A DNA stretch of 64,000 nt, taken from Haloactinopolyspora alba. GTDB lineage: Bacteria; Actinomycetota; Actinomycetes; Jiangellales; Jiangellaceae. The stretch lies in contig NZ_PYGE01000003.1 in assembly GCF_003014555.1 (NCBI RefSeq), positions 124,001-188,000 on the forward strand, written 5' to 3'. The position numbers and the translations under genes were made by a program. Numbering within the stretch: the first letter of the stretch is position 1; the number at the start of each line of letters is the position of its first letter. The notes below the pieces were generated by a model that saw nothing but the letters and a program-made list of their open reading frames with translations, was not told where the DNA came from and did no database searches. Positions 25,723-54,650 of the stretch are shown piece by piece.

Positions 25723-25758
25723 GTGCCGGCGCCCGGGGTGTCACTCAGGCGCCGGCAC
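25723..25758. terminator. Hairpin between converging OvmZ-like and AccC-like genes
   Basis: A perfect 11-bp inverted repeat (GTGCCGGCGCC / GGCGCCGGCAC, 14-nt loop) starts 13 nt after the OvmZ-like stop; its right arm overlaps the last codons of the carboxylase gene. No T-run on either side. Probable transcription end for the plus-strand gene. Confidence 0.5.
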
Positions 25759-27123
25759 TTCCGGCTCGTCCGGGGTGGGTTCACACCACCACGACTCGAC
25801 CAACGACGTGGAGTGCGTCGCGTCCCGGAAGTCCGGATGGTCGATGACGGCGGCGAGGAACTCGCGGGTGGTGCGGACGTTCGGCCCGGACAGCCGGAAC
25901 TCGGAGAGCGCACGCTCCATCCGTGCGCAGGCGCCGTCCCGGTCGGGAGCCCAGACGACCAGCTTGGCCAGGAGCGAGTCGTACTCGGCCGGCACCTGGT
26001 ATCCCGGCCGGACGTAGCTGTCGACGCGGACGAACGGCCCCGCTGCCGGAACGAACTCCTCGATCCGGCCGGGCGCCGGCGCGAAGTCCCGGTCCGGGTC
26101 CTCGGCGTTGATGCGGCACTCGATCGCGACCCCACGCGGGTCCACGTCCTCCTGCGTCACGGACAGCGGCTCCCCGGCGGCGACGCGTAGCTGTTCCTGG
26201 ACGATGTCGATCCCGGTGATCAGCTCGGTCACCGGATGCTCCACCTGGATGCGGCAGTTGACCTCCAGGAAGTAGTAGCTGCCGTCCGGGTGCACCACGA
26301 ATTCGAAGGTGCACGCGCCCCGGTACCCGGCGAGCACCGCGCCACGCCGCGCCGCCTCGCCCATCTCGTCGAGCACCGCTGTCGGCAACCCCGGCGCGGG
26401 CGCCTCCTCGACCAGCTTCTGGTGCCGACGCTGCAGGCTGCAGTCCCGCGTCCCCAGGTGCACGGCGCCGCCGTGACCGTCACACAGCACCTGGATCTCC
26501 ACATGCCGAGCCGTCTCGAGGTACTTCTCGACGTAGACGCGCGGGTCGCCGAACAGCGTCCCGGCCGTCGCCCTCGTCGCCCGGAACGCGTCCTCGAAGC
26601 CGCCCGGTCCGTCGATCACCCGCATGCCCAGCCCGCCCCCGCCGGCCGAGGCCTTCACGATGACCGGGAACCCGATCCGCTCGGCGACCTCGAGCGCCGC
26701 GGAAGGTCCCACGGTACCGGGGCTGCCCGGCAACAACGGCACTTCTGCCTCGCTCATCAGGGCACGCGCCTCGACCTTGCTGCCCAGTCGCTCGATCGTG
26801 GCGGCCGAGGGACCGACGAAGACGACGCCCGCGCGCTCGCACGCGTCGGCGAAGTCGGGGTTCTCGGACAGGAAGCCGTACCCCGGGTGGACTGCTTCGG
26901 CACCGGTCTGCAGGGCGGCCTGGATGATCGCCGCGGCGTTCAGATAGCTCTTCGCCGGCGTGGAAGGGCCGATCTGCACGGACTCGTCCGCGAGCCGGAC
27001 GGCTTCCGTGTCGCGGTCACGACCGGAGTGCGCCACGACCGAGGCGATGCCCGCGTCACGGCAGGCACGGACGACGCGCAGCGCGATCTCGCCACGGTTG
27101 GCGACCATGACCTTCCTGAACAC
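25741..27123 (-). CDS. accC: Acetyl-CoA carboxylase biotin carboxylase subunit
   Basis: ATP-dependent carboxylation of biotin on the carrier protein, first half-reaction of malonyl-CoA formation. 460 aa, close to bacterial AccC. Visible: the N-terminal KVMVANRGEIALRVVRACR, HPGYGFLSEN, the glycine-rich ATP loop ASAGGGGLGMRVI, metal/biotin residues in FEFVVHPDGSYYFLEVNCRIQVEHPVTE, and GVAIECRINAEDP. It follows the carrier gene by 10 nt. A second AccC inside a polyketide cluster (as JadJ in the jadomycin cluster) points to dedicated malonyl-CoA supply. No odd residues seen in the active site. Confidence 0.93.
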   Translation of the reverse strand: MFRKVMVANRGEIALRVVRACRDAGIASVVAHSGRDRDTEAVRLADESVQIGPSTPAKSYLNAAAIIQAALQTGAEAVHPGYGFLSENPDFADACERAGVVFVGPSAATIERLGSKVEARALMSEAEVPLLPGSPGTVGPSAALEVAERIGFPVIVKASAGGGGLGMRVIDGPGGFEDAFRATRATAGTLFGDPRVYVEKYLETARHVEIQVLCDGHGGAVHLGTRDCSLQRRHQKLVEEAPAPGLPTAVLDEMGEAARRGAVLAGYRGACTFEFVVHPDGSYYFLEVNCRIQVEHPVTELITGIDIVQEQLRVAAGEPLSVTQEDVDPRGVAIECRINAEDPDRDFAPAPGRIEEFVPAAGPFVRVDSYVRPGYQVPAEYDSLLAKLVVWAPDRDGACARMERALSEFRLSGPNVRTTREFLAAVIDHPDFRDATHSTSLVESWWCEPTPDEPEVPAPE

Positions 27124-27133
27124 GATGGCTCCC

Positions 27134-27739
27134 TCATTCGTCGGTCGGTCCGTCGCTCACGTGCTCCAGGGCGAACAGCGGCTGCCCGTGCTCGACGGCG
27201 TGGCAGTTCTCGGCCAGGACGTCGGCGATCCGGCCGGGCCGGTCCGCCTCGACCGGGATCATCAGCTTCATGACCTCGACGATGCCGACCTGCTGACCCG
27301 CCGATACCGTGGCTCCCGGCGTGGCGAACGGCTCCGCCCCGGGCTCCGGCGCGCGATAGAAGGTCCCGATGCTGGGCGAACGGATGTAGTGCGGCCGCGG
27401 TTGCGTCCCGGCACCGTCGCCGGTCGTCGCGCCGGGCCCGGCATCCGCGGCCGTCTGGGCGTCCAGGTTCTCCGGAGCCGACACGTCGTCGGTGCGTACG
27501 CGTGGGTCGCCGGAGCGCCGGGCCGGCGCGGCGGGCGTGTGCGCCCGTGCACCGTGGACCCCGTCCCAGTCCAGTTCGATCGTCACTTCGTCCGTACGGA
27601 CGCGCATCCGGTCCGGCCGGGCCGGCACCTCCTCGAGCAGCGACACCATCGCCCGCCGGACCTTCTCCACGATCTCGGCGACGTCGCCGCCGGCTCGCCC
27701 TGCGGCCGCGGAGACGTGCCGTTCACGACGCCATTTCAT
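27134..27739 (-). CDS. accB: Biotin carboxyl carrier protein of acetyl-CoA carboxylase
   Basis: 201 aa. The N-terminal third is helical and variable; a Pro/Ala/Thr/Gly-rich linker (about 65-110) leads to the biotinyl domain with IRSPSIGTFYRAPEPGAEPF and the biotin site EVMKLMIPVEAD (lysine about 158; the second Met of the usual AMKM is replaced by Leu). ATG 27739 lies inside the end of the carboxyltransferase gene (17-nt overlap), implying coupling; an alternative in-frame start was not found. Carries carboxybiotin between AccC and the AccDA fusion protein. Confidence 0.9.
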   Translation of the reverse strand: MKWRRERHVSAAAGRAGGDVAEIVEKVRRAMVSLLEEVPARPDRMRVRTDEVTIELDWDGVHGARAHTPAAPARRSGDPRVRTDDVSAPENLDAQTAADAGPGATTGDGAGTQPRPHYIRSPSIGTFYRAPEPGAEPFATPGATVSAGQQVGIVEVMKLMIPVEADRPGRIADVLAENCHAVEHGQPLFALEHVSDGPTDE

Positions 27740-29477
27740 CGCCCGACCCGACCTTCCGTGGTGTGCGTAGTGCAGTGGTGGACGGCTCGAGCGCGTCGAG
27801 ACGGCTGAACCGCTCGAACCGTCGTCTCCGTTCGTCGACCAACTCGGCCGCGTCCCGGGTGGCCAGCGACGACAGGCTGGCGACCAGGGCGGAACGCAGC
27901 CGCGTGCCGGCCACGGCGGGGTCGCCGCTCACACCGCCGGCCGGTTCCGGTACGACACCGTCCACGACGCCGAGCCGCAACAGATCTCGTGAGGCCAGCC
28001 GCAGCGCCGCGGCAGCCGCCGGACCCATCGCCGAGTCCTTCCACAGAATCGAGGCGCACCCTTCCGGGCTGATCACCGAATAGAACGCGTGCTGCCAGAT
28101 GATCACCCGGTTGGCCGCGGCGATGCCCAGCGCGCCGCCGCTGCCGCCCTCGCCGGTCACCACGGTCACGATCGGGACGGGCAGCGACATCATCACCCGC
28201 AGGCTCTCCGCGATCGTGCCCGCCTGCCCCTGCTCCTCGGCCTGCTCGCCCGGGTAGGCGCCCGGCGTGTCGACCAGGGTGACGATCGGCAGGCCCAGCT
28301 TGGCCGCCAGCCGCATGACCCGGACGCTCTTGCGATGCCCCGCCGGATACGACATCCCGAAGTTGTGCTCTGAAAGCTCGGCCAGCGTGTGCCCCTTCTG
28401 CTGCCCGACGATCACGACACGACACCCGGCGATGCTGGCCAGGCCCGTGATCATCGCCGGACAGTCACCGGAGACGCGGTCGCCGTGCAACTGCTGGAAG
28501 TCGTCGAGGACCAACCCGGTGTAGTCCAGCATCGTCGGGCGGTCGAGGTTGCGCGCCTCCCGCACCTGTCGCGACGGCTCCTCGACCGGCAGCATCTCCG
28601 CGTCGTCGACCGTGCGGTCCGGCTCCACGTGAGCATCCCGGTCGACCGGTTCGAGCGGCACTCGGGCCGAACCGAGCCGCAGCAGCGTCGCCAGCCGCGG
28701 GCGCAGCTGTGTCCGCGAGACGACCATGTCGACGTGCCCGCGTTCGAGCAGGAACTCCACGGTCTGGAACCCGCTGGGCAGCTCGCGGCCGATGGTCTGC
28801 TCGATCACCCGTCGTCCGGCGAAGCCCAGCCGCGCCCCCCGCTCGCCGACGATCACGTCGGACAGCGTGGCGAACGACGCGGCGACGCCGCCGTACGTCG
28901 GGTCCGTGACCACCGAGACCGTCAACAGCCCCGCCTCGTCCAGCCGGGCCCACGCCGCACTCGTCCTGGCCATCTGCATCAACGAGACCGCGCCCTCCTG
29001 CATGCGCGCGCCGCCGGAGGCGGTGACCACCACCAGCGGGACGCGCCGCGTCAGGGCGGCCTCGGCCGCGTGGACCAGCCTGTCCCCCGCGACGACGCCC
29101 AGGCTCCCGCCCAGGAACCGGAAGTCCATGACGGCGAGCACGACCGGCATGCCGTCGATCGACGCCGCGGCGCTCAGCACCGCGCCGTCGAGCCCGGTGT
29201 CGCTGCGCGCACGCGCCAGCCGCTGCCCGTACGGCATCGTGTCGACGAATCCGAGGACGTCGGTGGCGACGTCGTCCGGCGCCGGGCGGTCGAGCGGCTC
29301 GACACTGCCGGGGTCGGCCAGCTGTTCCAACCGGGTCCAACCGTCGACCCTGCTGTGATGCTCACACTCCGGGCAGACGTGGTGGTTCCTGGTCCACCGG
29401 GGCCCGTAGACGGCGGCCCGGCAGTTCTCGCAGAGTACCCAGTCCGGCGTGTTCGCTGCTGTCGTGGTGTGGTGCAT
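27723..29477 (-). CDS. accDA: Fused acetyl-CoA carboxylase carboxyltransferase (beta-alpha, AccDA)
   Basis: Single 584-aa chain joining both carboxyltransferase halves. Residues 1-40 hold the AccD zinc ribbon (C16-x2-C19, C35-x2-C38), 75-285 the beta crotonase fold (SGGARMQEGAVSLMQMARTSAA) and about 310-550 the alpha half (LDDFQQLHGDR, GMSYPAGHRKSVRVMRLAAK, DTPGAYPGEQAEEQGQ, GEGGSGGALGIA). It transfers CO2 from biotin to acetyl-CoA. The start ATG 29477 is chosen because the zinc ribbon begins directly after it; the longer frame to 30086 is a shadow of the next genes. Co-directional with accB and accC. Confidence 0.92.
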   Translation of the reverse strand: MHHTTTAANTPDWVLCENCRAAVYGPRWTRNHHVCPECEHHSRVDGWTRLEQLADPGSVEPLDRPAPDDVATDVLGFVDTMPYGQRLARARSDTGLDGAVLSAAASIDGMPVVLAVMDFRFLGGSLGVVAGDRLVHAAEAALTRRVPLVVVTASGGARMQEGAVSLMQMARTSAAWARLDEAGLLTVSVVTDPTYGGVAASFATLSDVIVGERGARLGFAGRRVIEQTIGRELPSGFQTVEFLLERGHVDMVVSRTQLRPRLATLLRLGSARVPLEPVDRDAHVEPDRTVDDAEMLPVEEPSRQVREARNLDRPTMLDYTGLVLDDFQQLHGDRVSGDCPAMITGLASIAGCRVVIVGQQKGHTLAELSEHNFGMSYPAGHRKSVRVMRLAAKLGLPIVTLVDTPGAYPGEQAEEQGQAGTIAESLRVMMSLPVPIVTVVTGEGGSGGALGIAAANRVIIWQHAFYSVISPEGCASILWKDSAMGPAAAAALRLASRDLLRLGVVDGVVPEPAGGVSGDPAVAGTRLRSALVASLSSLATRDAAELVDERRRRFERFSRLDALEPSTTALRTPRKVGSGDEMAS

Positions 29478-29578
29478 CAGCGCCAGCCCTTCCTGGTCGG
29501 ACGGCGGTCCCGGCGCCGGGCTTGCTCGTCCCGGCGCCGGGACCGTCGGGCCTGATCGGACGTGTCGAAGCCGACCAC

Positions 29579-29947
29579 TCAGTCGACGCAGATCCCGCTC
29601 ACGGCGACCTTCTCGAAGACGTGCGGGTAGATCACGGTGCCGTCGGGCCAGCCGTCGTGTTTCGCCTGGAACTCGGGGTCGGAGAACGCCTTGAGCAGGG
29701 CCTCCGTGGACTCCCAGACAGCGATGTTGGCCATGAGGGTGCCGCTGCCGGTGGCCCGGTGCAGCTGCGACGAGATGTAGCCCGGCTGGCGCTTCATGAA
29801 CTCCGCGTCCTCGCGCCACTTCTCCATCGCCTGCTCCATGCCCTCGTCGGGGACGCTGAACATGTTCACCAGAACGACCGGGCCGGTCTCGTGCTGCAGC
29901 TGGTTCTCGAACGGAACGGACGGGTCCAGACTCTTGAGCTCGATCAT
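29579..29947 (-). CDS. Antibiotic biosynthesis monooxygenase (ABM) family protein, paralogue 1
   Basis: Small 122-aa protein with the dimeric alpha/beta ABM fold: VVLVNMFSVPDEGMEQAMEKW as the first strand/helix, then FMKRQPGYISSQLHRA and IAVWESTEALLKAFSDPEF. The 40397-40762 gene encodes a clear paralogue. ABM proteins include cofactor-free anthrone oxygenases (ActVA-orf6 type) and JadG-like ring-cleavage partners, but also catalytically inert members, so the reaction is uncertain. Placed between the carboxylase genes and a dienelactone-hydrolase-like gene on the same strand. Confidence 0.85.
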   Translation of the reverse strand: MIELKSLDPSVPFENQLQHETGPVVLVNMFSVPDEGMEQAMEKWREDAEFMKRQPGYISSQLHRATGSGTLMANIAVWESTEALLKAFSDPEFQAKHDGWPDGTVIYPHVFEKVAVSGICVD

Positions 29948-29994
29948 GTTCGTCTCCGCCTTTCGTCGACGTGGATCGGATCTGATCGTTGACG

Positions 29995-30834
29995 TCAGTC
30001 GCGTGCTTCGTGCTCCGTACGGTCTCCGCCGGCGGTGAGCCGCTCGCGGAGGAATCCGACGACGCGGTCGCGGGCGGCCATCGCACTGTGGCCGGGTCGT
30101 TCCCGCAGCTCGCCGGTGAGCACCGAGTGAGCGTTCCGGGAGAAGCCGTCGTCGTTCCCCGGCGCCGAGTCGAGCTCGATCACCTCGAACGCGTCACCGA
30201 GGCGGTCGCGCAGTGCCGCGAACCGGTCCCGGTGGCAGCCACGGTCCTCGCTGAACCGCAGCCCGAGCACGCACAACCTCGACCGCGCGGCACGCCGTGC
30301 CACGGTCTCCAGCTCCGCCGCGGCCACACCGGGGTCGCGGCGGCGTTCCTTGCCGATGGGGAACGGCACGGCCGGCTGGCTGATCACCGGCGCGATCACC
30401 GCCGAGTCCACGGCGGCGGCCAGGGCGAACCCGCCGGTGAAACACATCCCGATGATGCCGACGCCCGGTCCGGGCGTGCGCGCGTCCAGGTCACGGGCCA
30501 GCGCCCGCAGGTAGTTCGCGATCGGCCGCCGCGTGTTCGTCGCGAACGCGTGGAACTCGGTCGCGACACACAGCCGCGCCACGACCTTGGCCGCCCGCCC
30601 CGGCGACGCCGGCTCGCCAGGCTCGCCGAACAGGGACGGCATCGCGACCGTGAATCCCTGGCTCACCAGGTGCTCGCCGAGCGCGACGACCTGTGGCGTG
30701 ATGCCGGGAATCTCGGGCAGGAGTACGACTCCCGGTCCGGTTCCCTTCTCGTAGACGTCGTGGGTGACACCCGCGTCGGTGAACGGTGCGGGCGACCATC
30801 CGGTGAGCTGTGCCTCGGGCGCGGCGTCGGTCAT
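29995..30834 (-). CDS. Dienelactone hydrolase-family protein
   Basis: Alpha/beta-hydrolase of 279 aa. The nucleophile elbow is G-M-C-F-T-G-G (Cys nucleophile, as in dienelactone hydrolases) about two fifths along, preceded by GVVLLPEIPGITPQVVALGEHLVSQGF; the C-terminal part contains the histidine region GFSRNAHSVL. Start ATG 30834 is set by AAGGAGG four nt upstream. In aromatic-polyketide clusters such proteins can open or close lactones or help cyclise, but this is an inference from location. Confidence 0.85.
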   Translation of the reverse strand: MTDAAPEAQLTGWSPAPFTDAGVTHDVYEKGTGPGVVLLPEIPGITPQVVALGEHLVSQGFTVAMPSLFGEPGEPASPGRAAKVVARLCVATEFHAFATNTRRPIANYLRALARDLDARTPGPGVGIIGMCFTGGFALAAAVDSAVIAPVISQPAVPFPIGKERRRDPGVAAAELETVARRAARSRLCVLGLRFSEDRGCHRDRFAALRDRLGDAFEVIELDSAPGNDDGFSRNAHSVLTGELRERPGHSAMAARDRVVGFLRERLTAGGDRTEHEARD

Positions 30835-31731: not shown

Positions 31732-32712
31732 ATGTCCGACAGCCCGGCAGACCACCCGACTCGACAGGCCGCCCCAGCCGACCACGCGCCGCGGACCGAA
31801 GACGTGCCCCGCACCGCCGACGCCGCCACCCGGACGTTCGTCGAGCACCGGCGGCTGCTGTTCTCCGTCGTGTACAACATGCTCGGCAGCGTCAGCGACG
31901 CCGAGGAGGTGCTCCAGGAAGCCTGGCTGGCCTGGAGCCGGCACAACGACCGCCTGAGCAACCGCGAGATCGAGAACCCGCGGGCCTACCTGGTGCGGGT
32001 CGCGGTGAACCAGGCACTGGCGCAGAAGGCGGTCATCAGCCGCCGGCGCGAGACCTACGTCGGCCCGTGGCTGCCCGAGCCACTGGTGTCCGAGTCGGCC
32101 GCGGACACCGACGTCGCCGACGAGGTCCTGCGCGCCGAGTCGGTCTCCATGGCGCTGCTCGTCGTCCTCGAGACGCTGTCCCCGGTGGAACGGGCGGTCT
32201 TCGTCCTGCACGAGGCGTTCGGCTACGCGCACACCGAGATCGCCGACATCCTCGACCGCACCCCCGACTCCGTACGCCAGATCGCACATCGCGCCCGCGA
32301 GCACGTGCACGCCCGCCGTCCCCGTTACCAGACCGAGCCGGCCACGCAGGAGAAGGTGACCGAACGGTTCATCGCCGCGGCGCTCGGTGGCGACCTCGTC
32401 AAGCTGATGGACATCCTGGCGCCCGACGTGACGCTGTGGGCCGACGGCGGCGGCAAGGCTCTCGCGGCCGCGAAGCCACTGCACGGTCGCGACAAGGTGG
32501 CGCGGATGATGGCCGGGTTCGCCAGCCGGCCCGCGGGCCTCGACATGCGCTTCCGACGGGTGAACGACGACCTGTCGGTGTTGCTGTTCACCGGGGACAC
32601 GCTGTGGGCGGTGCTCATCCTCGACCTCACCGCCGAGGGCGACCAGGTGCGCGAGATCTACAGCATCACCAACCCCGACAAGTTGCGCCACATCGCCGCG
32701 GACGCCGACTAG
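31732..32712 (+). CDS. ECF41-type RNA polymerase sigma factor with SnoaL-like C-terminal domain
   Basis: 326 aa. Sigma2 region at about 38-105 (VVYNMLGSVSDAEEVLQEAWLAWSR), sigma4 at about 150-205 (LSPVERAVFVLHEAFGYAHTEIADILDRTPDSVRQIAHRAR), then a C-terminal SnoaL-like domain (about 215-320) with DVTLWADGGGK and a terminal NPDKL motif. In ECF41 factors this extension replaces an anti-sigma factor and modulates activity. RBS GAGGAGG precedes the ATG. Usual targets are a few neighbouring oxidoreductase-type genes; here the divergent F420-type reductase is the obvious candidate. A TGTCAC about 55 nt upstream could be part of its own promoter, but no matching -10 was found. Confidence 0.92.
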   Translation: MSDSPADHPTRQAAPADHAPRTEDVPRTADAATRTFVEHRRLLFSVVYNMLGSVSDAEEVLQEAWLAWSRHNDRLSNREIENPRAYLVRVAVNQALAQKAVISRRRETYVGPWLPEPLVSESAADTDVADEVLRAESVSMALLVVLETLSPVERAVFVLHEAFGYAHTEIADILDRTPDSVRQIAHRAREHVHARRPRYQTEPATQEKVTERFIAAALGGDLVKLMDILAPDVTLWADGGGKALAAAKPLHGRDKVARMMAGFASRPAGLDMRFRRVNDDLSVLLFTGDTLWAVLILDLTAEGDQVREIYSITNPDKLRHIAADAD

Positions 32713-44407: not shown

Positions 44408-46111
44408 TCACAACACCTTCTTGCCCTTGAGCCCGGACCTGACGACGCCGCCCACCAGCGCCCGGCCGAGCTCACGCATCTCCGGCGGCGCCTTCCGGCT
44501 GGACCAGTACATGAACTTCGCCATCATCGGCGCCGTCGGCAGGGCGAACCGGGTGTCTTCCGGGTCCTTCCAGCCGAACACCGGGTTGACCAGGTCGCTG
44601 TCGTTCAACAGCTGGAAGATGATGTCCGCGGCCGCGTCGCCGTCGAGCTCACCGACCTCGTACTTCTCACAGGTCTCGGCGGTAATCTCGAGGATCCGCT
44701 TGACCTCGTCGCTCTCCGGCCACCACAGGCCGGGATACGCGGTGTTCTCGAGGTCCTCGAAGTGCTGTGCGTCGTCGTCGAGCGCGTAGTTCAGCCGTGC
44801 CCTCGTCAGCCGCATCACGCCCGGCGTCAGGAACGCGGCCCACATCCGGAACACCGCGTTCCACAGTCGGAAGTGGTTGAACGCGATGAACGAGCTGTTC
44901 ACCAGCTCGTCGTTGTAGTGCAGCAGACCGCGTTCGAGCGTCTCGACGTACTCGAACCGCTCCACCGAGAAGTCGTCCTCCTCGAGCGCCGGGAGCAACC
45001 TGCTGATCAGCGCGTAGACGACCTCGAACGTGTTGGACAGTCCGCGGGAGAACAGCGGGTCGATGAACCCCGCAGCGTGCGACATGAGACACCAGCGGTA
45101 GCCGATCGACTGCGACGACGAGTACTGCAGCCGGTCGGTCGAGACCCACTCCCGTACCGGGTGCGCGCCCTCGAACTGGCGCTTCACCGCGGGGTACTGG
45201 TTCAGGTAATGATGGAACTCCTGCTCCGGTGTCATGTCCGTGGGCTTCGGGTACATCCGGTCGTCGAACGTCAACCCCACGCTGCACACCGGGTTCTTGG
45301 ACCCCTTGACGTTGTCGAACGGGATGATCCAGAACCACCCGCGATCGATCAGGTGGTGCAGCGTCCCGCCGTGCCACGGCGCCGGCGGGCGCAGACTGCG
45401 CGGGTGGTGGCACACGTCGTCGAACGGCTTGATGCCCACGTAATGCGTGAACAGCGACCGCGAGTGGTGCTTGAACCGCGCCGGCTGCTCACGCAGCCCG
45501 AACTTCTCCGCGAGCGGTGACCGGAACCCGCTGGCGTCGATCATGTACCGCGCCCGGAAGATCTCACCGCTCTGCCCGGTCACGGTGACGCCGTCGTCGT
45601 CGAAGTCCAGGTCGGTCGCGCGCCAGTTCTGCCGGGTGATGCACCCGTAGCTGGCGGCGACGTGGAAGTAGTACTGGTCGGTCTCCTGCCGATACAGGTG
45701 GCTGGCCTCCGTCAGCAGCTTCGGGATGACGAACATCGTCGCCTCGCGCGGATCGGGCTCCTGCCCCGGAACCTCGCGGATGAACCCGAAGCTCTGCTTG
45801 CGGCCGTGGTGCGGGCCGATGTGCTTCGACGTCGCCTTGACGTCGAACAGGTGCTCCAGCTCCGGCACGTCGAACCGTGCCCGCAGGATCTGCAGCCACT
45901 CGATCAGCTGCGGTGTCATCGACTCGCCCACCGCGAACCGTGGATGCTGGCCGCCGTCGACCAGCGCGACCTTGACGCCCTGACTGGCGAGGCACAGCGC
46001 GCTCACCGAGCCCGCCAACCCGGATCCCAGGATCAGCACGTCGCATTCGCGTACGGCTCCGGATTCCTCCGAGCCACCAACCGTTCGGACCTTGCTGTCC
46101 ATTGCCGACAA
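44408..46111 (-). CDS. Flavin-dependent halogenase-family protein
   Basis: 567 aa, tryptophan-halogenase superfamily. FAD-binding GSGLAGSVSALCL near residue 30, the family loop HPRFAVGESMTPQLIEW, the halogenase W-x-W-x-I-P motif as GWFWIIPFDN (about 262) and the SHAAGFIDPLFSRGL region. The motif supports halogenase chemistry but many members are unproven or act as hydroxylases. It may use FADH2 from the flavin reductase encoded at 32717-33295. If active, the product would be chlorinated or brominated. Flanked by the F420-type reductase and the FAD hydroxylase genes. Confidence 0.82.
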   Translation of the reverse strand: MSAMDSKVRTVGGSEESGAVRECDVLILGSGLAGSVSALCLASQGVKVALVDGGQHPRFAVGESMTPQLIEWLQILRARFDVPELEHLFDVKATSKHIGPHHGRKQSFGFIREVPGQEPDPREATMFVIPKLLTEASHLYRQETDQYYFHVAASYGCITRQNWRATDLDFDDDGVTVTGQSGEIFRARYMIDASGFRSPLAEKFGLREQPARFKHHSRSLFTHYVGIKPFDDVCHHPRSLRPPAPWHGGTLHHLIDRGWFWIIPFDNVKGSKNPVCSVGLTFDDRMYPKPTDMTPEQEFHHYLNQYPAVKRQFEGAHPVREWVSTDRLQYSSSQSIGYRWCLMSHAAGFIDPLFSRGLSNTFEVVYALISRLLPALEEDDFSVERFEYVETLERGLLHYNDELVNSSFIAFNHFRLWNAVFRMWAAFLTPGVMRLTRARLNYALDDDAQHFEDLENTAYPGLWWPESDEVKRILEITAETCEKYEVGELDGDAAADIIFQLLNDSDLVNPVFGWKDPEDTRFALPTAPMMAKFMYWSSRKAPPEMRELGRALVGGVVRSGLKGKKVL

Positions 46112-46131: not shown

Positions 46132-47643
46132 TTATCGATGTCTCTCCGGCGCACCGGCATGCTCACCGTCGGCCTGCCGTCCCGGTGCCGCGTCCGAGCC
46201 GAACCAACGCCGAAGCGCCGGGCCCGGATCGCCGTCGCGGCCCGCTGCCCAGGCGACGTGTCCGTCCGGGCGGACGAGGACCGTCCGCGTGCCCGGCGGC
46301 AGTGCGGTGCCCTCGCCGCGCGCCGACACCAGCGCCACCCGCCCGGGCACCTCCCCGAGCGCTCCGGCCAGCTCCGTGTGGCGGGCCGGATCGCCGGACA
46401 GGTCGAGCAGCACGCCGTGCCCGTCGTGCAGCGACACGGTCGTGCTCGAGCGGCCCGCGCCGGAGTCCAGGTCGACGTGCGGCATGCGGGCGCCGACGAG
46501 CGCGTGCTCGGCCGTGCCGTACCGGACGTCCAGCCCGCCGATCCGTTCCGCGAGCCGAGCGGCGACCGCGGGCAGCTCGAGCAGCTGCGCGACGACGTCG
46601 CGGACCGCGTCGACGCCGTGGTCACCGAGCAACAGCGACGCCTGGGCCTCGATACTGTCCAGCGTCCGCCGGCCCTCCGGGTGCCGCTCGTCGTGATAGC
46701 TGTCCAGCAGCGTCGGCGGCGCCCGGCCGGTCACCTGCGCGGCCAGCTTCCAGCCGAGGTTGACCGCATCCTGGATGCCCAGGTTGATCGCCTGACCGCC
46801 GACGGGCAGCTGCCGGTGCGCCGCGTCGCCGGCCAGCAGCACCCGTCCGTTCCGGTACTGCGTGACCAGCCGGCTCTCGTCGTCGAGTGCGCTCAGCCAC
46901 AGTGGAGTGCCACCTCCGACGTCCTCCCCGGTGACGCGCTTCCACGCCGCCACCAGCTCGGCGAAATCGGGGGCGCTCGCACGCGTCACGGGCCGCCGAC
47001 CGAACTCGTGGACCATCAGCCGGGTCACGCCGTCCCGCGTCGCCGCGACCGCCAATCCGCGGTCGAGCCGTTCGAACCGGCGGTCCGGAACGTCAACCCC
47101 GGAAACGTCGCAGCGCAGCAGCTCACGGGTGGGTGGGGACCCCGGGAACTCGAACGGCGCGAGCACGCGGACCGCGCTGTCGTCGCCGTCGCACCCGACG
47201 ACGTAGCCGGCGCTCAGCCGGACCGTCCCGTCCGGCGTGCCGGCCGTCACCAGCACGCCGGACCCGCTCTCGTCGATGTCGCGGACGTCGTGCTCGCGCC
47301 GGATCCGCGCGCCCAGTCCGCTCGCCCAGTCCGCGAGGAGACGCTCGGTGCGCGCCTGCGGGACCTTCCACTGCCCCGGATGACGGGTCGGCTGCCCGCC
47401 GAGGTCCAATGCCAGCCCGCCGAAGTGGCCACGGGGTTCACCGGGCACCGGCCCCAGGACCTCCAGCAGGCCGCGCTGGTCGAACAGTTCCATCGTGCGC
47501 GCGTGCAGGGTCGACGCACGCGACTCGGTCGTCGGCGCGGCCAGGCGTTCGAGCACGGTGACCCGCGCGCCGCCGAGACGCAGCTCACCGGCGAGCATCA
47601 GCCCGACCGGACCGGCACCGACGACGATGACGTCGGTGTCCAT
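46132..47643 (-). CDS. FAD-dependent aromatic hydroxylase (class A, PgaE/UrdE type)
   Basis: 503 aa, p-hydroxybenzoate-hydroxylase fold: DVIVVGAGPVGLMLAGEL at the start, the DG motif VVGCDGDDSAVR (about 158), RVLLAGDAAHRQLPVGGQAINLGIQDAVNLGWKLAA and a degenerate thioredoxin-like C-terminal domain (about 380-490). Such enzymes oxygenate angucyclinone or anthracyclinone carbons using NADPH. It starts 1 nt after the aromatase stop. The very end (GRQADGEHAGAPERHR) is unstructured. Confidence 0.92.
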   Translation of the reverse strand: MDTDVIVVGAGPVGLMLAGELRLGGARVTVLERLAAPTTESRASTLHARTMELFDQRGLLEVLGPVPGEPRGHFGGLALDLGGQPTRHPGQWKVPQARTERLLADWASGLGARIRREHDVRDIDESGSGVLVTAGTPDGTVRLSAGYVVGCDGDDSAVRVLAPFEFPGSPPTRELLRCDVSGVDVPDRRFERLDRGLAVAATRDGVTRLMVHEFGRRPVTRASAPDFAELVAAWKRVTGEDVGGGTPLWLSALDDESRLVTQYRNGRVLLAGDAAHRQLPVGGQAINLGIQDAVNLGWKLAAQVTGRAPPTLLDSYHDERHPEGRRTLDSIEAQASLLLGDHGVDAVRDVVAQLLELPAVAARLAERIGGLDVRYGTAEHALVGARMPHVDLDSGAGRSSTTVSLHDGHGVLLDLSGDPARHTELAGALGEVPGRVALVSARGEGTALPPGTRTVLVRPDGHVAWAAGRDGDPGPALRRWFGSDAAPGRQADGEHAGAPERHR

Positions 47644-47644
47644 C

Positions 47645-48592
47645 TCAGCACCGGCTCTCGGCGTACTCCTTGGCGTACCCGAGCGTGGTGCGGCTGTTCG
47701 TGCCCAGGGCGTTGCGCACGAACTCCCTGGCCTCGGCCACGCCGCGGCCGGCCCCCAGCACCTCCGGGATGTTCGCCTCGTTGAGCACGACGGTGTGCTG
47801 TGACGTCGCGAGCACGCCGGTGTCCGCCTCCTCGAACCGCCAGTAGCCCGTGTGCAGCGACATCAGCGCCGGCAGCGTGGTCTGCTTGTAGACGATCCGA
47901 TCGTTCGGGAAACACACGCGGACGGACTCGGTGCGATGCGTGGCGCCGTCCTTGGTCCGGGTGTCCATCGACAAGCTCTGCACCCCCGGCGTCTCCTCCG
48001 CCATCGAGACCCACGCCACGTGCGGGAGCCGGTCGGCCCAGGCGTCGGCCTCGTTGACGAAGTCGTACACGTCACCGGCCGCGCCGTGGACGTGCACGGA
48101 GTCCTCGAACGACAGCGTCAGCCCGTTGTCCGCGTCCACGGCCAGCTCGACGTTCGCCTTCAGCGCCGCCAGCTCGGCCTGGCTGTTGCCGTCGACCGCC
48201 CGGTCGATCCACGCGAGGTGGTCCGGATCGTCGTCGACGGCTCGGTAGTCGTGCAACAGCCGCACCCGCGATTCCCGTTCGGACAACGCCTCGATCAGCC
48301 AGGACCCGCCCATGGACGCGACCGGCGGCGCCGACACTTCCTGGCGGAAGTCGATGCGCCGCCGCGACGGATCGAGGGCGCGCCGCGAGATCCAGCTCTT
48401 GGCTTCCCCGTTCGCGGTGGCGAAGATCCGGATCCGTTCGTCGGCTCCCGAACGCTGGACGCAGTCGACGTGCACGGTCGGCGGGAAGATCCGCGGCCAG
48501 TTCTCCACGTCGGCGATCAATCGGTAGATCTCACCGGCCGGTGCGGCCACGGTGACATCGTGTTCCACCTCTCGGCGGCCGTGTGGCGACAT
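47645..48592 (-). CDS. Bifunctional polyketide aromatase/cyclase (two SRPBCC domains)
   Basis: 315 aa with two START/Bet v1-like halves: REVEHDVTVAAPAGEIYRLIADVENWPRIFPPTVHV (1-150) and EDSVHVHGAAGDVYDFVNEADAWADRLPHVAWV (160-315). Di-domain ARO/CYC proteins close and aromatise the first ring of C-9-reduced octa- and decaketides, consistent with the ketoreductase gene just upstream. Same strand and spacing as the core synthase genes. Confidence 0.94.
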   Translation of the reverse strand: MSPHGRREVEHDVTVAAPAGEIYRLIADVENWPRIFPPTVHVDCVQRSGADERIRIFATANGEAKSWISRRALDPSRRRIDFRQEVSAPPVASMGGSWLIEALSERESRVRLLHDYRAVDDDPDHLAWIDRAVDGNSQAELAALKANVELAVDADNGLTLSFEDSVHVHGAAGDVYDFVNEADAWADRLPHVAWVSMAEETPGVQSLSMDTRTKDGATHRTESVRVCFPNDRIVYKQTTLPALMSLHTGYWRFEEADTGVLATSQHTVVLNEANIPEVLGAGRGVAEAREFVRNALGTNSRTTLGYAKEYAESRC

Positions 48593-48626: not shown

Positions 48627-49412
48627 TCAGAAGTTGCCCAGACCGCCGCAGACGTTGATCGCCTGTGACGTGACCGGAGCGGCGGTGTCCGTGGTCAGAT
48701 AACCGACGAGACCGGCGACCTCGTCGGGCGTGGAGTACCGTCCGAGCGGGATCTTCGCCTGGAACCGGGTCAGCACCTCTTCCTCGGAGATGTCCCACGC
48801 CCGCGCGTAGCCCTGCCGGACCCGCTGCGCCATCGGCGTCTCGACGTAACCCGGGCACACGGCGTTGACGGTGATCCCCGTCGACGCCAGTTCGTTGCCC
48901 AGCGCCTTGGTGAAACCGACGACGCCGTGTTTGGAGGCCGAGTAGGGCGCGCCCAGGACGACACCCTGCTTGCCCGCGGTCGAGGCGATGTTGATGATCC
49001 GGCCGCTGCCACGGCGTCGCATCCCGCCCGCGTTGAGCACCTCGCGGGTCACCCGGAAGACGCTGTTCAGGTTGGTGTCGACGACGTCGAACCACAGGTC
49101 GTCGGCGATGTCGGCAGTGACACCCCCGCCGCTACGGCCGGCGTTGTTCACCAGCACGTCCACCGGGCCGTACCGGGCGACGGCCGCAGGGACCCACGCC
49201 CGGACGGCGTCGAGATCGGTCACGTCGCAGGCGGTGCCGGCGACGTCGTGCCCCTCGTCGACCAGCTGCTTGACGGTGCTGTCCACGTCGGACTCGGTGC
49301 GGGCGCAGATGAAGACCCGGTGGCCCCGACCGGCCAGCGTCCGCGTGACGGCGAGCCCGACGCCGCTGGTAGCTCCGGTGACGAGTGCGACGGGTCGAGT
49401 ACTGGCTGTCAT
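48627..49412 (-). CDS. Polyketide C-9 ketoreductase (ActIII type)
   Basis: 261 aa, the same length as ActIII. TGATSGVGLAV glycine motif, NNAGRSGGG (ActIII has NNAGRPGGG, so the proline of the PGG motif is serine), S in NIASTAGKQG and Y-x3-K in APYSASKHGVVGFTKALGNEL, ending VTSQAINVCGGLGNF. Reduces the C-9 keto group of the nascent poly-beta-keto chain with NADPH. Start ATG 49412 has GAGGAGG upstream. Confidence 0.95.
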   Translation of the reverse strand: MTASTRPVALVTGATSGVGLAVTRTLAGRGHRVFICARTESDVDSTVKQLVDEGHDVAGTACDVTDLDAVRAWVPAAVARYGPVDVLVNNAGRSGGGVTADIADDLWFDVVDTNLNSVFRVTREVLNAGGMRRRGSGRIINIASTAGKQGVVLGAPYSASKHGVVGFTKALGNELASTGITVNAVCPGYVETPMAQRVRQGYARAWDISEEEVLTRFQAKIPLGRYSTPDEVAGLVGYLTTDTAAPVTSQAINVCGGLGNF

Positions 49413-49462
49413 GCCTCCTCCTCGTGTGGTCCGGGGGTGCCCGCCGGCGCCGGATCCGGCGC

Positions 49463-49720
49463 TCACGCGGCGAGCCTGTCGTTCACCGCCGCCAGCAGCT
49501 GCCGTGGCGTGTCGACGTCGTTGATCGTCGCGTCGTCCAGCTCGACCCCGGTAGCCCGCTCGAGCCGGGCTCCGGCTTCCAGCAGCGCGAGCGAGTCGTA
49601 GCCGAGCTCACCGAAGTCGGTGTCGAGGATCTCGCCGTCGAGGTCGACCCCGTCGGACTCCCCGGCCACCTCCCGCAGGACCTCCTTGAGGCTGTCGATG
49701 GTGACTTCACGCATCGTCAT
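49463..49720 (-). CDS. Acyl carrier protein, likely also made from an internal start
   Basis: 85 aa from ATG 49720: [21 protein letters not shown], phosphopantetheine site [19 protein letters not shown] with S43, then [24 protein letters not shown] lies 7 nt upstream, as strong as other sites in the cluster. It tethers the growing chain on phosphopantetheine. This frame is the 3-prime portion of the KS-beta/ACP fusion reading frame. No phosphopantetheinyl transferase gene is in the window. Confidence 0.8.
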   Translation of the reverse strand: MTMREVTIDSLKEVLREVAGESDGVDLDGEILDTDFGELGYDSLALLEAGARLERATGVELDDATINDVDTPRQLLAAVNDRLAA

Positions 49721-50968
49721 CGCGAATCCCTCCGTCACGTTCGGCGCGGCACGGTTCGCCGGCCGGCGCACCACCACCGCGGAGTTGAAACCGTCGTATC
49801 CCCGTGCCAGCACCAGCGCCGCATCCACGGCGGCGCTCCTGGGCCGTTCGAGCACCAGGTCGAGGCGGTGCGCCGTGGCCGGCTCGACGTTGGTCGTCGG
49901 CGGGATCAGCCGGTCACGGATCGACAGCAGCGCGGCGGCGACGTCCACCGACGCCGCCCCGGACAGCATCCGTCCGGTCATCGTCTTCGGCGCCGTGACC
50001 GGGACCGCCTCCGGCCCGAACACCGCGGAGATCGCCGTCGCCTCGACGCGGTCCAGGTCGGGGACGGCCGCAGCGTCGGCGAAGACGACGTCGATGTCGC
50101 CCGGCGCCATGCCGGCGTCGTGCAGCGCCTGCTCGATCGCCCGCCGCAAACCTGGCTCCCGCCCGCTTCCCGGGCCGGGGTCGAAGGTCGCGGCATAGCC
50201 GGCGATCTCTCCGTAAACCGTGGCCGAGCGCGCCCGGGCCGCCTCGGCGTCCTCGACGACGAGCAGCGCACCGCCTTCGCCGGGTACGTGCCCGCGAGCA
50301 CCGGCGTCGAACGGCCGGTAGGCCCGGTCCGGATCGTCGCTGGTCGTCATCCGTCCGGCCGCCATCTGCGCCACCCAGCCCCAGGAGCAGATCGACGCGT
50401 CGACGCCGCCGGCGACCGTGACCGGACATCCCTTGCGCACGAGCCGGCGCGCCTGGCCGAGCGCGTCGAGCCCTCCGGCTTGGTCGGCCACGAGCACGCC
50501 GCTGGGCCCGCGGGTGCCGTGCCGGATCGAGATCTGCCCGGTGTTCACCGCGTAGAACCAGGCGAAGGACTGGTACGCGCTGACGAACTTCCCGCCTTTG
50601 CTCCACAGGTTCCGCAGCTGACCCTCGCCGAACTCGAAGCCGCCGGAGGAGCTGGCGGTGACCACCCCCACGTCGTACTCCGGCCAGTCCTGCGGCGTGA
50701 TCCCGGCGTCGTCCAGGGCCCAGTCCGCGGCCACGAGCGCCATCCGGGTCATGTGGTCCGTCTGCGGCAGCAGCCGGCTGGGCAGGTGCTCCTCGGCGAC
50801 GAAGCCCGGCACCTGGCCGGCCAGCCGCGCCGGATACGTGCTGGCGTCGAACCGTTCGATGTGGCGGATGCCGTTGACCCCGCGACGGGTGCGCGCCCAG
50901 TACTCGGCCGTGCCGAGGCCGGTCGGCGCCACCACGCCCATCCCGGTGACGACGGCTGACGCGTTCAC
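49463..50968 (-). CDS. Chain-length factor (KS-beta) fused in frame to acyl carrier protein
   Basis: One open frame of 501 codons. Residues 1-416 are a KS-beta: [15 protein letters not shown]163 replacing the KS-alpha cysteine ([14 protein letters not shown]), [23 protein letters not shown], and an end at [19 protein letters not shown]. No stop follows; the frame runs through VTEGFA into [13 protein letters not shown] of the ACP (417-501). GTG 50968 overlaps the KS-alpha stop (GTGA). In standard clusters KS-beta and ACP are separate. The GGAGGGATTCGCGATG junction keeps a ribosome site for the ACP, so both a fusion and a free ACP may be made. A lost stop codon or a sequencing error would give the same picture. 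Confidence 0.85.
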
Positions 50969-52221
50969 GCCGCCCTCCCGAGCACCATCGCGCTCTGGAA
51001 TCCGCCGAATCCGCTGCCGACGGAGAGCACCGCGTCGGTCGGCCACTGCCGTGACTCCAGCGGGACGTAGTCCAGGTCGCATTCCGGGTCCGGTTCGTGC
51101 AGGTTCGCGGTCGGCGGGACGACGTTGTTCTCGATCGCCAGCGCCGACGCCGCGATCTCGATCGACCCGATCGCGCCGAGCGAGTGCCCCACCATCGACT
51201 TGATGGAGCTCACCGGAGTCCGGTACGCGTACTGCCCGAGGCTGCGCTTGAACGCCGCCGTCTCGTGCCGGTCGTTCTGCTTCGTCCCGGACCCGTGCGC
51301 GTTGACGTAGTCGATCCGTTCCGGATCGAGCCTGGCCTCGGCCAGCGCGGCGTCGATCGCCGCGGCCATCTCGCGCCCGTCCGCGCGCAGCCCGGTCATG
51401 TGGTAGGCGTTGCACCGCGTGGCGAACCCGGCGATCTCGGCGTACGGGTGCGCGCCGCGCGACCTGGCCCGTTCGTACTCCTCGAGCACGAACATCGCCG
51501 CCCCCTCCCCCAGCACGAACCCGTTGCGCGTGCCGTCGAACGGGCGGGACGCGTGCTGCGGATCGTCGTTGCGCGGCGTGGTCGCCTTGATCGCGTCGAA
51601 GCAGGCCACGGTGATCGGCGAGATCGGGGCGTCGGCACCGCCGGCGATCATCAGGTCGGCGCCGCCTTCGCGGATCACGTCCGTCGCGTGCCCGACGGCA
51701 TCCAGACCGGACGTGCAGCCGGTGGAGACCACGGCCGCCGGCCCTTCGGCGCCCACCGCGTGCGCGACCTCCTTCGCGAACGAGCTCGGCACGAAGTAGT
51801 CGTAGAGGTGCGGGACCACGTAGGCGTGGTCGACCACGTCCAGCCGGCCGCCGTCACTGACGACGCGGTACTCCCGGTCCAGTCCCATGGTCGCGCCGAC
51901 CGCGCTGCCGACCGTGATACCGAGCCGGTGCGGGTCGGTGGCCGCCGGGTCGACGCCGCTGTCGATCACCGCTTGTCCTGCGGTCACCACCGCGAACTGT
52001 GCGGCTCGGTCCATGCGACGGGATTCCTGCGGGCTCAGCCCGTGCATCTCCGGGTCGAAATCGACTTCGGCCGCCACGTGGGAGCGGAACGGGCCGGGGT
52101 CGAAGAAGCTGATCGTTCTGGTCGCCGTGCGCCCGTCACTGAGCAGCGCCCAGAACTCCTTGGTGTTCACGCCCCCCGGGGCGACTACTCCGATGCCGGT
52201 GATCACGACTCGCCGTTCCAT
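50965..52221 (-). CDS. Beta-ketoacyl synthase KS-alpha of type II polyketide synthase
   Basis: 418 aa, condenses malonyl-ACP units. Active-site C169 in [12 protein letters not shown], histidines in [12 protein letters not shown] (about 309) and [12 protein letters not shown] (about 346), [24 protein letters not shown] in between. The ATG at 52221 is fixed by AAGGAG seven nt upstream and [17 protein letters not shown]. Last base pairs overlap the KS-beta GTG. Together with KS-beta, ketoreductase, aromatase and TcmI-type cyclase it defines a reduced aromatic polyketide, probably octa- or decaketide; chain length cannot be assigned from sequence alone. Confidence 0.96.
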
Positions 52222-52249
52222 GTGGATTCTCCTTCGGAAGAGAGGTCCC

Positions 52250-52579
52250 TCACGAAGCTCTGGACCAGTGGTAGAAGGGCGTGGCCATGGCATCGGCCGG
52301 CGATCGCCACGTCTGCGGGTCGTACGCCGCGACGTGTGGTTCCAGGTCGCGGCTGATCTTCACGAACAGCGGATGCGTCTTCGCGTCCTCGATCGCAGCG
52401 CCGCCGTTCTCCGAGTCGAAGTCCTGCAGATGGAAGTACAGTCCGTGAAAACGGAAGAGCTGCCGGCGCCGCGTGCCCATGAGCTGCGGCATCTCGGTGC
52501 GATCGAACTCCTCGAACAGTCCGGCGATCTCGTCGCCGGAGCCTTCCCGCATCCGCGCCACGATCAGGGTGCTGTGCAT
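52250..52579 (-). CDS. TcmI-family polyketide cyclase
   Basis: 109 aa, ferredoxin-like dimer family: [53 protein letters not shown] and the ending [10 protein letters not shown] are characteristic. Members (TcmI, JadI, UrdF) close later rings in tetracenomycin and angucycline pathways. First gene of the core synthase operon, 28 nt before KS-alpha, so its promoter should be in the upstream 535-bp gap. Confidence 0.94.
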
Positions 52580-53114: not shown

Positions 53115-54650
53115 TCAGGCAGCAGGCACGTGCGGCAACGCGGCCTCGATCCGAGCGATCGTGCGCTCGCGGCCCAGCAGCTCCAGCGACTCGAACAGCG
53201 GCGGAGACACCCGGCGGCCGGTCACCGCCACCCGCACCGGGCCGAACGCGTGCTTCGGCTTGATACCGAGCCCATCCACCAGCGCCGCGCGCAACGCCGC
53301 CTCGATGGCCTCGGTCTGCCAGGCGTCGACGCCGGCGAGCGCCGACCGGGCCGCCTCGAGCACCGGGCGCGCGTCCGGCTTGAGCACCTTGGTGACCGAG
53401 TCCTCGTCCAGCTCCACCGTGTCGCCGGCGAACAGGAACCCGAGCATCCCGACGGACTCGTCCAGCACCGTCATCCGCTCCTGCACCAGCGGTGTCGCCG
53501 CCTTCAGCAACTCCAGGTCCGCGTCCGGCGCCGGGTCGGCCAGCACGCCGGCGCTCTGCAGGTGCGGGACCATCCGCTCGGCGAGGTCGTCGACGGACAG
53601 CCGCCGCAGCCACGCGCCGTTGATGGCCTCGGCCTTGTGCAGGTCGAAGCGGGCCGCGTTGGAGTTGACCCGGGTGACGTCGAACGCCTCGGCCATCTCG
53701 GCCATCGAGAAGACCTCGCGGTCCTCACCGATGGACCAGCCCAGAAGTGCCAGGTAGTTCAGCAGGCCCTCGGGCAGGAACCCGCGGTCGCGGTAGAGCT
53801 GCAACGACGACTGCGGGTCACGCTTGGACAGCTTGCGGTTGCCGTCGCCGGTCACCAGCGGCAGATGCCCGTAGCGCGGCAACGGGCCCGAGGCGACGCC
53901 GATGTCGCGCAGCGCCTCGTGCAACACCAGCTGCCGCGGAGTCGACGACAGCAGGTCCTCGCCGCGCAGCACGTGCGTGATGCCCATCAGCGCGTCGTCG
54001 ACCGGGTTCACCAGCGGGTAGAGCGGGTGCCCGTTGGCGCGGACCAGCACGTAGTCGAACAGGTTGTTCTCGTCGACGCTGATCTCGCCGCGGACGAGGT
54101 CGGTGAACGTGATCGGACGGTCGGGCATGCGCATCCGCAGCACCGGCTGCCGACCCTCCGCCCGGTAGGCCTCGACCTGCTCGTCGGTCAGCGTGCGGCA
54201 CCGGCCGTCGTAGCCGCTCGGCTTGCCCGCCGCCCGCGCGGCCTCGCGCCGCTCGTCGAGCTCCTCGGGCGTGCAGTAGCAATGGTAGGCGCGCCCTGCT
54301 TCCAGCAGCCGCTGCGCCGTGTCGGCGTAGTGCTGGTGTCGCAGCGACTGGCGGTACGGCGTGTGCGGCCCGCCGACGTCGGGTCCCTCGTCCCAGGTCA
54401 GCCCCAGCCAGCGCATGGCATCGAGCATCGCCTCGTAGGACTCCTCGGTGTCGCGGCTGACGTCGGTGTCCTCGATGCGGAACACGAACGAGCCGCCGAA
54501 GTGCCGCGCGAACGCCCAGTTGTACAGCGCCGCCCTGACCACGCCGACGTGCGGGTTCCCGGTCGGCGAGGGCGAGTAGCGGACACGGACGTCCGCGGGG
54601 GCGACGTCGCCGAGCACGAGGTCGTCCGACGCGCCGGAGCCGTCAGTCAC
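53115..54650 (-). CDS. gltX: Glutamyl-tRNA synthetase
   Basis: 511 aa class I synthetase charging tRNA-Glu (and, in actinobacteria that use the amidotransferase route, tRNA-Gln). HIGH-like motif [12 protein letters not shown] (25-36), [23 protein letters not shown] and KMSKS-like [10 protein letters not shown]; the C-terminal anticodon-binding domain is complete. Housekeeping gene marking the right border of the accessory region. In other actinobacteria tRNA-Gln and tRNA-Glu follow directly; here they are 44 kb away. Confidence 0.97.

Follow-up and report, generated by a model that had tools for sequence, protein, structure and literature searches.

Gene content of the locus

In the window (the whole 64-kb stretch of DNA that was analysed), the minus-strand ORF from 50968 (GTG) to 49463 (stop) has 501 codons and zero internal stops. 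Its 501-aa product holds two complete domains, a chain-length factor (CLF, or KS-beta) and an acyl carrier protein (ACP), and the single uninterrupted KS-beta-ACP frame described in the first-pass annotation is therefore real at the level of the assembled sequence. The features of this frame and of the adjoining polyketide synthase (PKS) genes are the following:

44408–46111 (−): flavin halogenase-like protein (Trp_halogenase)
46132–47643 (−): FAD aromatic-ring hydroxylase
47645–48592 (−): two-domain aromatase/cyclase (SRPBCC, two stretches)
48627–49466 (−): ketoreductase (KR, SDR), likely start MTAST at 49412
49463–49720 (−): ACP, MTMREV...DRLAA, 85 aa plus stop, residues 417–501, ATG at 49720–49718
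49721–49756 (−): linker, 12 codons without a stop (frame reading; disorder prediction)
49728–49733 (−): GGAGGG ribosome-binding site, part of the linker sequence, its end 7 nt upstream of the ACP ATG
49757–50968 (−): CLF / KS-beta domain, residues 1–404 (GTG start, VADQAGG, structure match)
50965–52293 (−): KS-alpha, STGCTSG with the active-site Cys, likely start MERRVVITG at 52221
52250–52579 (−): TcmI-type polyketide cyclase (PF04673)

The GTG start of the CLF overlaps the stop codon of KS-alpha (GTGA). CLF residues 4–404 match the actinorhodin CLF (1tqy_B, E 1e-151), which is the best solved match, and the motif VADQAGG carries Gln where a KS has the active-site Cys. The CLF proper spans about 404 residues rather than the 416 previously assigned to KS-beta. 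After the CLF RRP there are 13 codons in all; the earlier figure of about 13 linker codons plus VTEGFA counted that stretch twice. The GGAGGG was seen where it had been described, at 49733–49728. ACP residues 430–495 match the PP-binding domain (PF00550, E 1.8e-9), and the phosphopantetheine site is intact (GYDSL, with a DSL-type serine). In the structure model of the 501-aa protein (mean pLDDT 84), two folded regions are joined by ~22 poorly ordered residues, which separate the end of the last CLF strand (residue 401) from the start of ACP helix I (residue 424); the linker is predicted to be disordered (pLDDT <50 at residues 410–417). The domain search found no acyltransferase (AT) domain in the 501-aa protein.

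Upstream of the CLF-ACP frame lie KS-alpha and the TcmI-type cyclase, while downstream lie the KR, the aromatase/cyclase, the hydroxylase and the halogenase-like flavoprotein. Farther out, the window encodes an MFS exporter, an ABM monooxygenase, dTDP-sugar enzymes, a glycosyltransferase and carboxylase subunits. This gene content points to a glycosylated, antibiotic-like aromatic polyketide as the product of the cluster. Coherently with a type II PKS, a separate KS-alpha with its Cys (STGCTSG) adjoins a Cys-less CLF (VADQAGG), and both a KR and an aromatase/cyclase are encoded nearby. The arrangement of iterative type I PKSs, with catalytic KS, AT and ACP on one polypeptide, is absent, the partner of the ACP being a CLF. 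The ACP has its own ATG and a strong ribosome-binding site, yet it also lies in the CLF frame. No recognised type II PKS ACP was found elsewhere in the genome, where PP-binding matches are three in total.

Some other genes lie around the cluster. A glutamyl-tRNA synthetase gene (53115–54650, −) borders the PKS genes; it was considered as a self-resistance copy and this role was rejected, since the genome has no second gltX, which makes this one a housekeeping gene. A single ORF at 27723–30086 (−) contains both acetyl-CoA carboxylase carboxyltransferase halves, AccD-like and then AccA-like, and a biotin carboxylase-like ORF (25741–27123) lies near it; together, these ORFs probably provide a dedicated malonyl-CoA supply for the cluster. 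An ECF sigma factor with a C-terminal SnoaL_2 domain (31732–32712, +) is also found near the cluster and is a candidate regulator.

Frequency and origins of CLF-ACP fusions

The first scan, with one genome per species, yielded 58 loci, and none of the 58 had a CLF-ACP fusion. The wider search covered the class, the order, the family, a Streptomyces-like genus (g24), three further families (f17, f18 and f19) and the relatives of two fusions, for 1,968 genome searches with repeats, i.e., about 1,300 distinct actinomycete genomes. It listed roughly 500 CLF matches (hand count). About 120 of the matches listed (again counted by hand) continue into an ACP in the same frame, and all but four of these have at least one stop inside. 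Fusions are thus found at about 4 of roughly 500 listed CLF loci (about 1%), each as a singleton; weaker fused loci beyond the matches listed could be missed. The possibility that the window fusion is unique was rejected, as the genome search, which follows up the proposal of the first-pass annotation to look for KS-beta fused C-terminally to ACP, gave three others among the matches listed, in genomes unrelated to the window genome and to each other:

L092:9960–11477: L092 fusion, genome G560
L093:9774–11312: L093 fusion, genome G739
L110:7675–9168: L110 fusion, genome G1076

The linkers of L092 (...RAAASFTSATKGPPP-M) and L110 (...RAQDGASSREEKGELV-M) are open from CLF to ACP, and L093 has an open CLF-to-ACP frame with its own linker. 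The ACP active-site motif is intact in all four fusions, and each has retained the ACP start codon together with a ribosome-binding site.

For each of the four fusions, the nearest sampled relatives are unfused. In the same-genus genome G001 (76% CLF identity), the CLF ends with ...HTEGKP and is followed by TGATG, in which the CLF stop overlaps the ACP ATG and the ACP lies in frame +2. The same TGATG overlap occurs in L024 and L033, while other near loci have short stop/start overlaps (L065 and L070) or spacers between CLF and ACP (L012, L014 and L064). The nearest sampled ortholog of L092 (L107, 86% identity) carries a TGA 19 nt upstream of the ACP ATG, and in that of L093 (L108, 74–76% identity) a TGA lies about 108 nt upstream of the ATG. 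A conserved fused clade was rejected: none of the rows listed for the relatives of G560 and G739 contains a second fused ortholog. Likewise, none was found among the matches listed for the family of G1076 (343 genomes). Among plasmid-borne relatives (87 records), the annotated rows listed that include an ACP show separate CLF and ACP genes.

On the CLF tree (88 sequences), the distribution of the four fusions requires four independent changes; well-supported branches force this number, and the 5% and 95% limits of the bootstrap are both 4. Shared ancestry of the four fusions was rejected on this basis.

A fused frame could also arise from a sequencing or assembly indel; in that case the CLF would have its normal stop, and a single base error within the tail of roughly 40 nt would have merged the two frames. 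The other phases of the window carry TGAs just upstream of the GGAGGG, overlapping the ATG and 11 nt inside the ACP; both phases being so provided, one wrong base could yield an apparent fusion. Furthermore, the closest relatives are unfused and the assembly is a 49-contig draft. However, the same architecture recurs in three unrelated assemblies, one of which has only five contigs, and L092 has no stop near the junction in either other phase, so that a single indel would not restore the usual layout there. The adjoining KS-alpha, KR, aromatase and both flavoenzymes are also uninterrupted frames with domain matches. Taken together, we consider an indel rather unlikely. A stop codon between the two domains in close relatives had been named beforehand as a sign against a genuine fusion: the stop is indeed present in close relatives, but it marks the fusion as a recent event and by itself does not show an error.

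Little change is needed to reach the fused state. Among 76 unfused CLF/ACP neighbours examined, the ACP is in the CLF frame in 24, and in 22 (about 29%) it is in frame with exactly one stop between, so that losing one stop codon would fuse the pair. For this reason, the absence of a stop is in itself not improbable in high-GC DNA. At about 1% of listed CLF loci and always as singletons, the fusion appears to be easy to reach and not retained. Its rarity, despite the single-stop distance in many loci, points to a change that is neutral or worse and that as a rule does not persist.

These figures bear on whether the fusion is kept by selection for functional tethering, with the fused ACP used in cis on the KS-alpha/CLF dimer; the proposed benefit would be a higher local carrier concentration or a fixed chain length. 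The intact active-site motif of the four ACPs, the four independent origins and the flexible linker (about 22 residues from the CLF strand end to ACP helix I in the model) are coherent with this explanation. On the other hand, the fusions are all isolated cases among unfused near relatives, and no clade keeps them; a fused state in about 4 of roughly 500 listed loci, although many lie a single mutation from it, suggests no advantage; and the free-ACP start is retained rather than lost. Tethering under selection seems to us quite improbable, and it is very doubtful that a division of labour, with the tethered ACP serving elongation in cis and a free pool serving tailoring, arose repeatedly by stop-codon loss. 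The description of the locus as a distinctive architecture half-way to a type I enzyme is not supported for the same reason, as no clade keeps the fusion: all the fusions are singletons, and their nearest sampled relatives have separate genes. A selected half-type-I machine is possible, but nothing in these results favours it.

The rarity of fusions and the absence of fused clades could instead reflect a mildly harmful or decaying state, in which a PKS impaired by the fusion would be followed by loss of the cluster. Both domains of the fusion are intact, though, as are the PKS genes next to it, and we regard decay as highly improbable.

ACP start signal and proposed expression of the fused frame

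The strength of the ACP start signal was measured as the duplex energy between the 19 nt before the ACP start and the 16S tail. The window ACP start (−12.3 kcal/mol) is stronger than those of 95% of unfused loci (median −9.5). The value of L110 (−10.7) is typical, whereas L092 (−7.6) and L093 (−7.8) are weaker and fall in the lowest fifth. Because the ribosome-binding site of the window is strong, free ACP is very likely still made beside the fusion in this organism, as judged from sequence. The proposal that ribosomes could make both products is thus well supported at this level, the frame being open and the start signal kept.

With the open frame, intact domains, a kept start signal, independent recurrence and unfused near relatives observed, we interpret the locus as an ordinary type II PKS cluster for a glycosylated aromatic product whose CLF stop codon was probably lost in a recent event specific to this lineage, giving both a fusion and free ACP. 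Most likely, the ancestral state was a tight or overlapping arrangement of CLF stop and ACP start, as in the nearest relatives, and a small change near the ribosome-binding site would have brought CLF and ACP into the same frame. Ribosomes translating the CLF would then run on to give a 53-kDa CLF-ACP, while initiation at the retained GGAGGG-ATG would give free ACP. The KS-alpha/CLF heterodimer would work as usual, with free ACP shuttling between enzymes; the ACP tail on the CLF would be tolerated and may serve as a minor extra carrier. The translation of both products, the tolerance of the tail and the assignment of the chemistry to one product or the other are predictions. Against stop-codon loss as the explanation stands the fact that, in the window, each of the two other phases meets a TGA only a few codons from the ACP start, so that a single base error could produce the apparent fusion. 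Having arisen separately in at least three other sequenced species and being absent from close relatives, the fusion appears to be a variant that is rare and tolerated rather than a novel type of enzyme.

Comparison with known synthases

No published natural CLF-ACP fusion was found in the open literature searched. The statement of the first-pass annotation that no well-described example is known stands for this literature, but not for genomes, given the three additional fusions. In a review (PMC12664062), the components of type II systems are presented as individual mono- or didomain proteins without covalent links, and PMC7949117 sets type I ACPs, which are built into a modular architecture, against type II ACPs.

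Should the cell make both products, the locus would offer a natural test of whether a type II PKS can tolerate an ACP anchored to the elongation dimer, or benefit from it. This bears on the route from dissociated synthases to multidomain ones, and the four fusions offer ready-made linkers to engineers tethering ACPs.

Compared to the canonical type II minimal PKS of the actinorhodin type, the window has the same gene order (KS-alpha, CLF, ACP, KR, aromatase/cyclase) and likewise a CLF matching 1tqy_B, the KS-alpha Cys and the DSL-type serine of the ACP, but it has no stop codon between CLF and ACP. With the TGATG loci (G001, L024 and L033) it shares a CLF frame that runs through the ACP ribosome-binding site and a tight coupling of the two genes; those loci keep the stop overlapping the ACP start, whereas the window has lost it. 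L092, L093 and L110 have in common with the window the uninterrupted CLF-linker-ACP frame and the kept ribosome-binding site and ATG, while their linkers, positions on the CLF tree and origins differ from those of the window. Finally, as in iterative type I PKSs, a KS-type domain and an ACP are found on one chain, but in the window the fused domain is a CLF and not a catalytic KS, AT is absent, and the free ACP start is kept.
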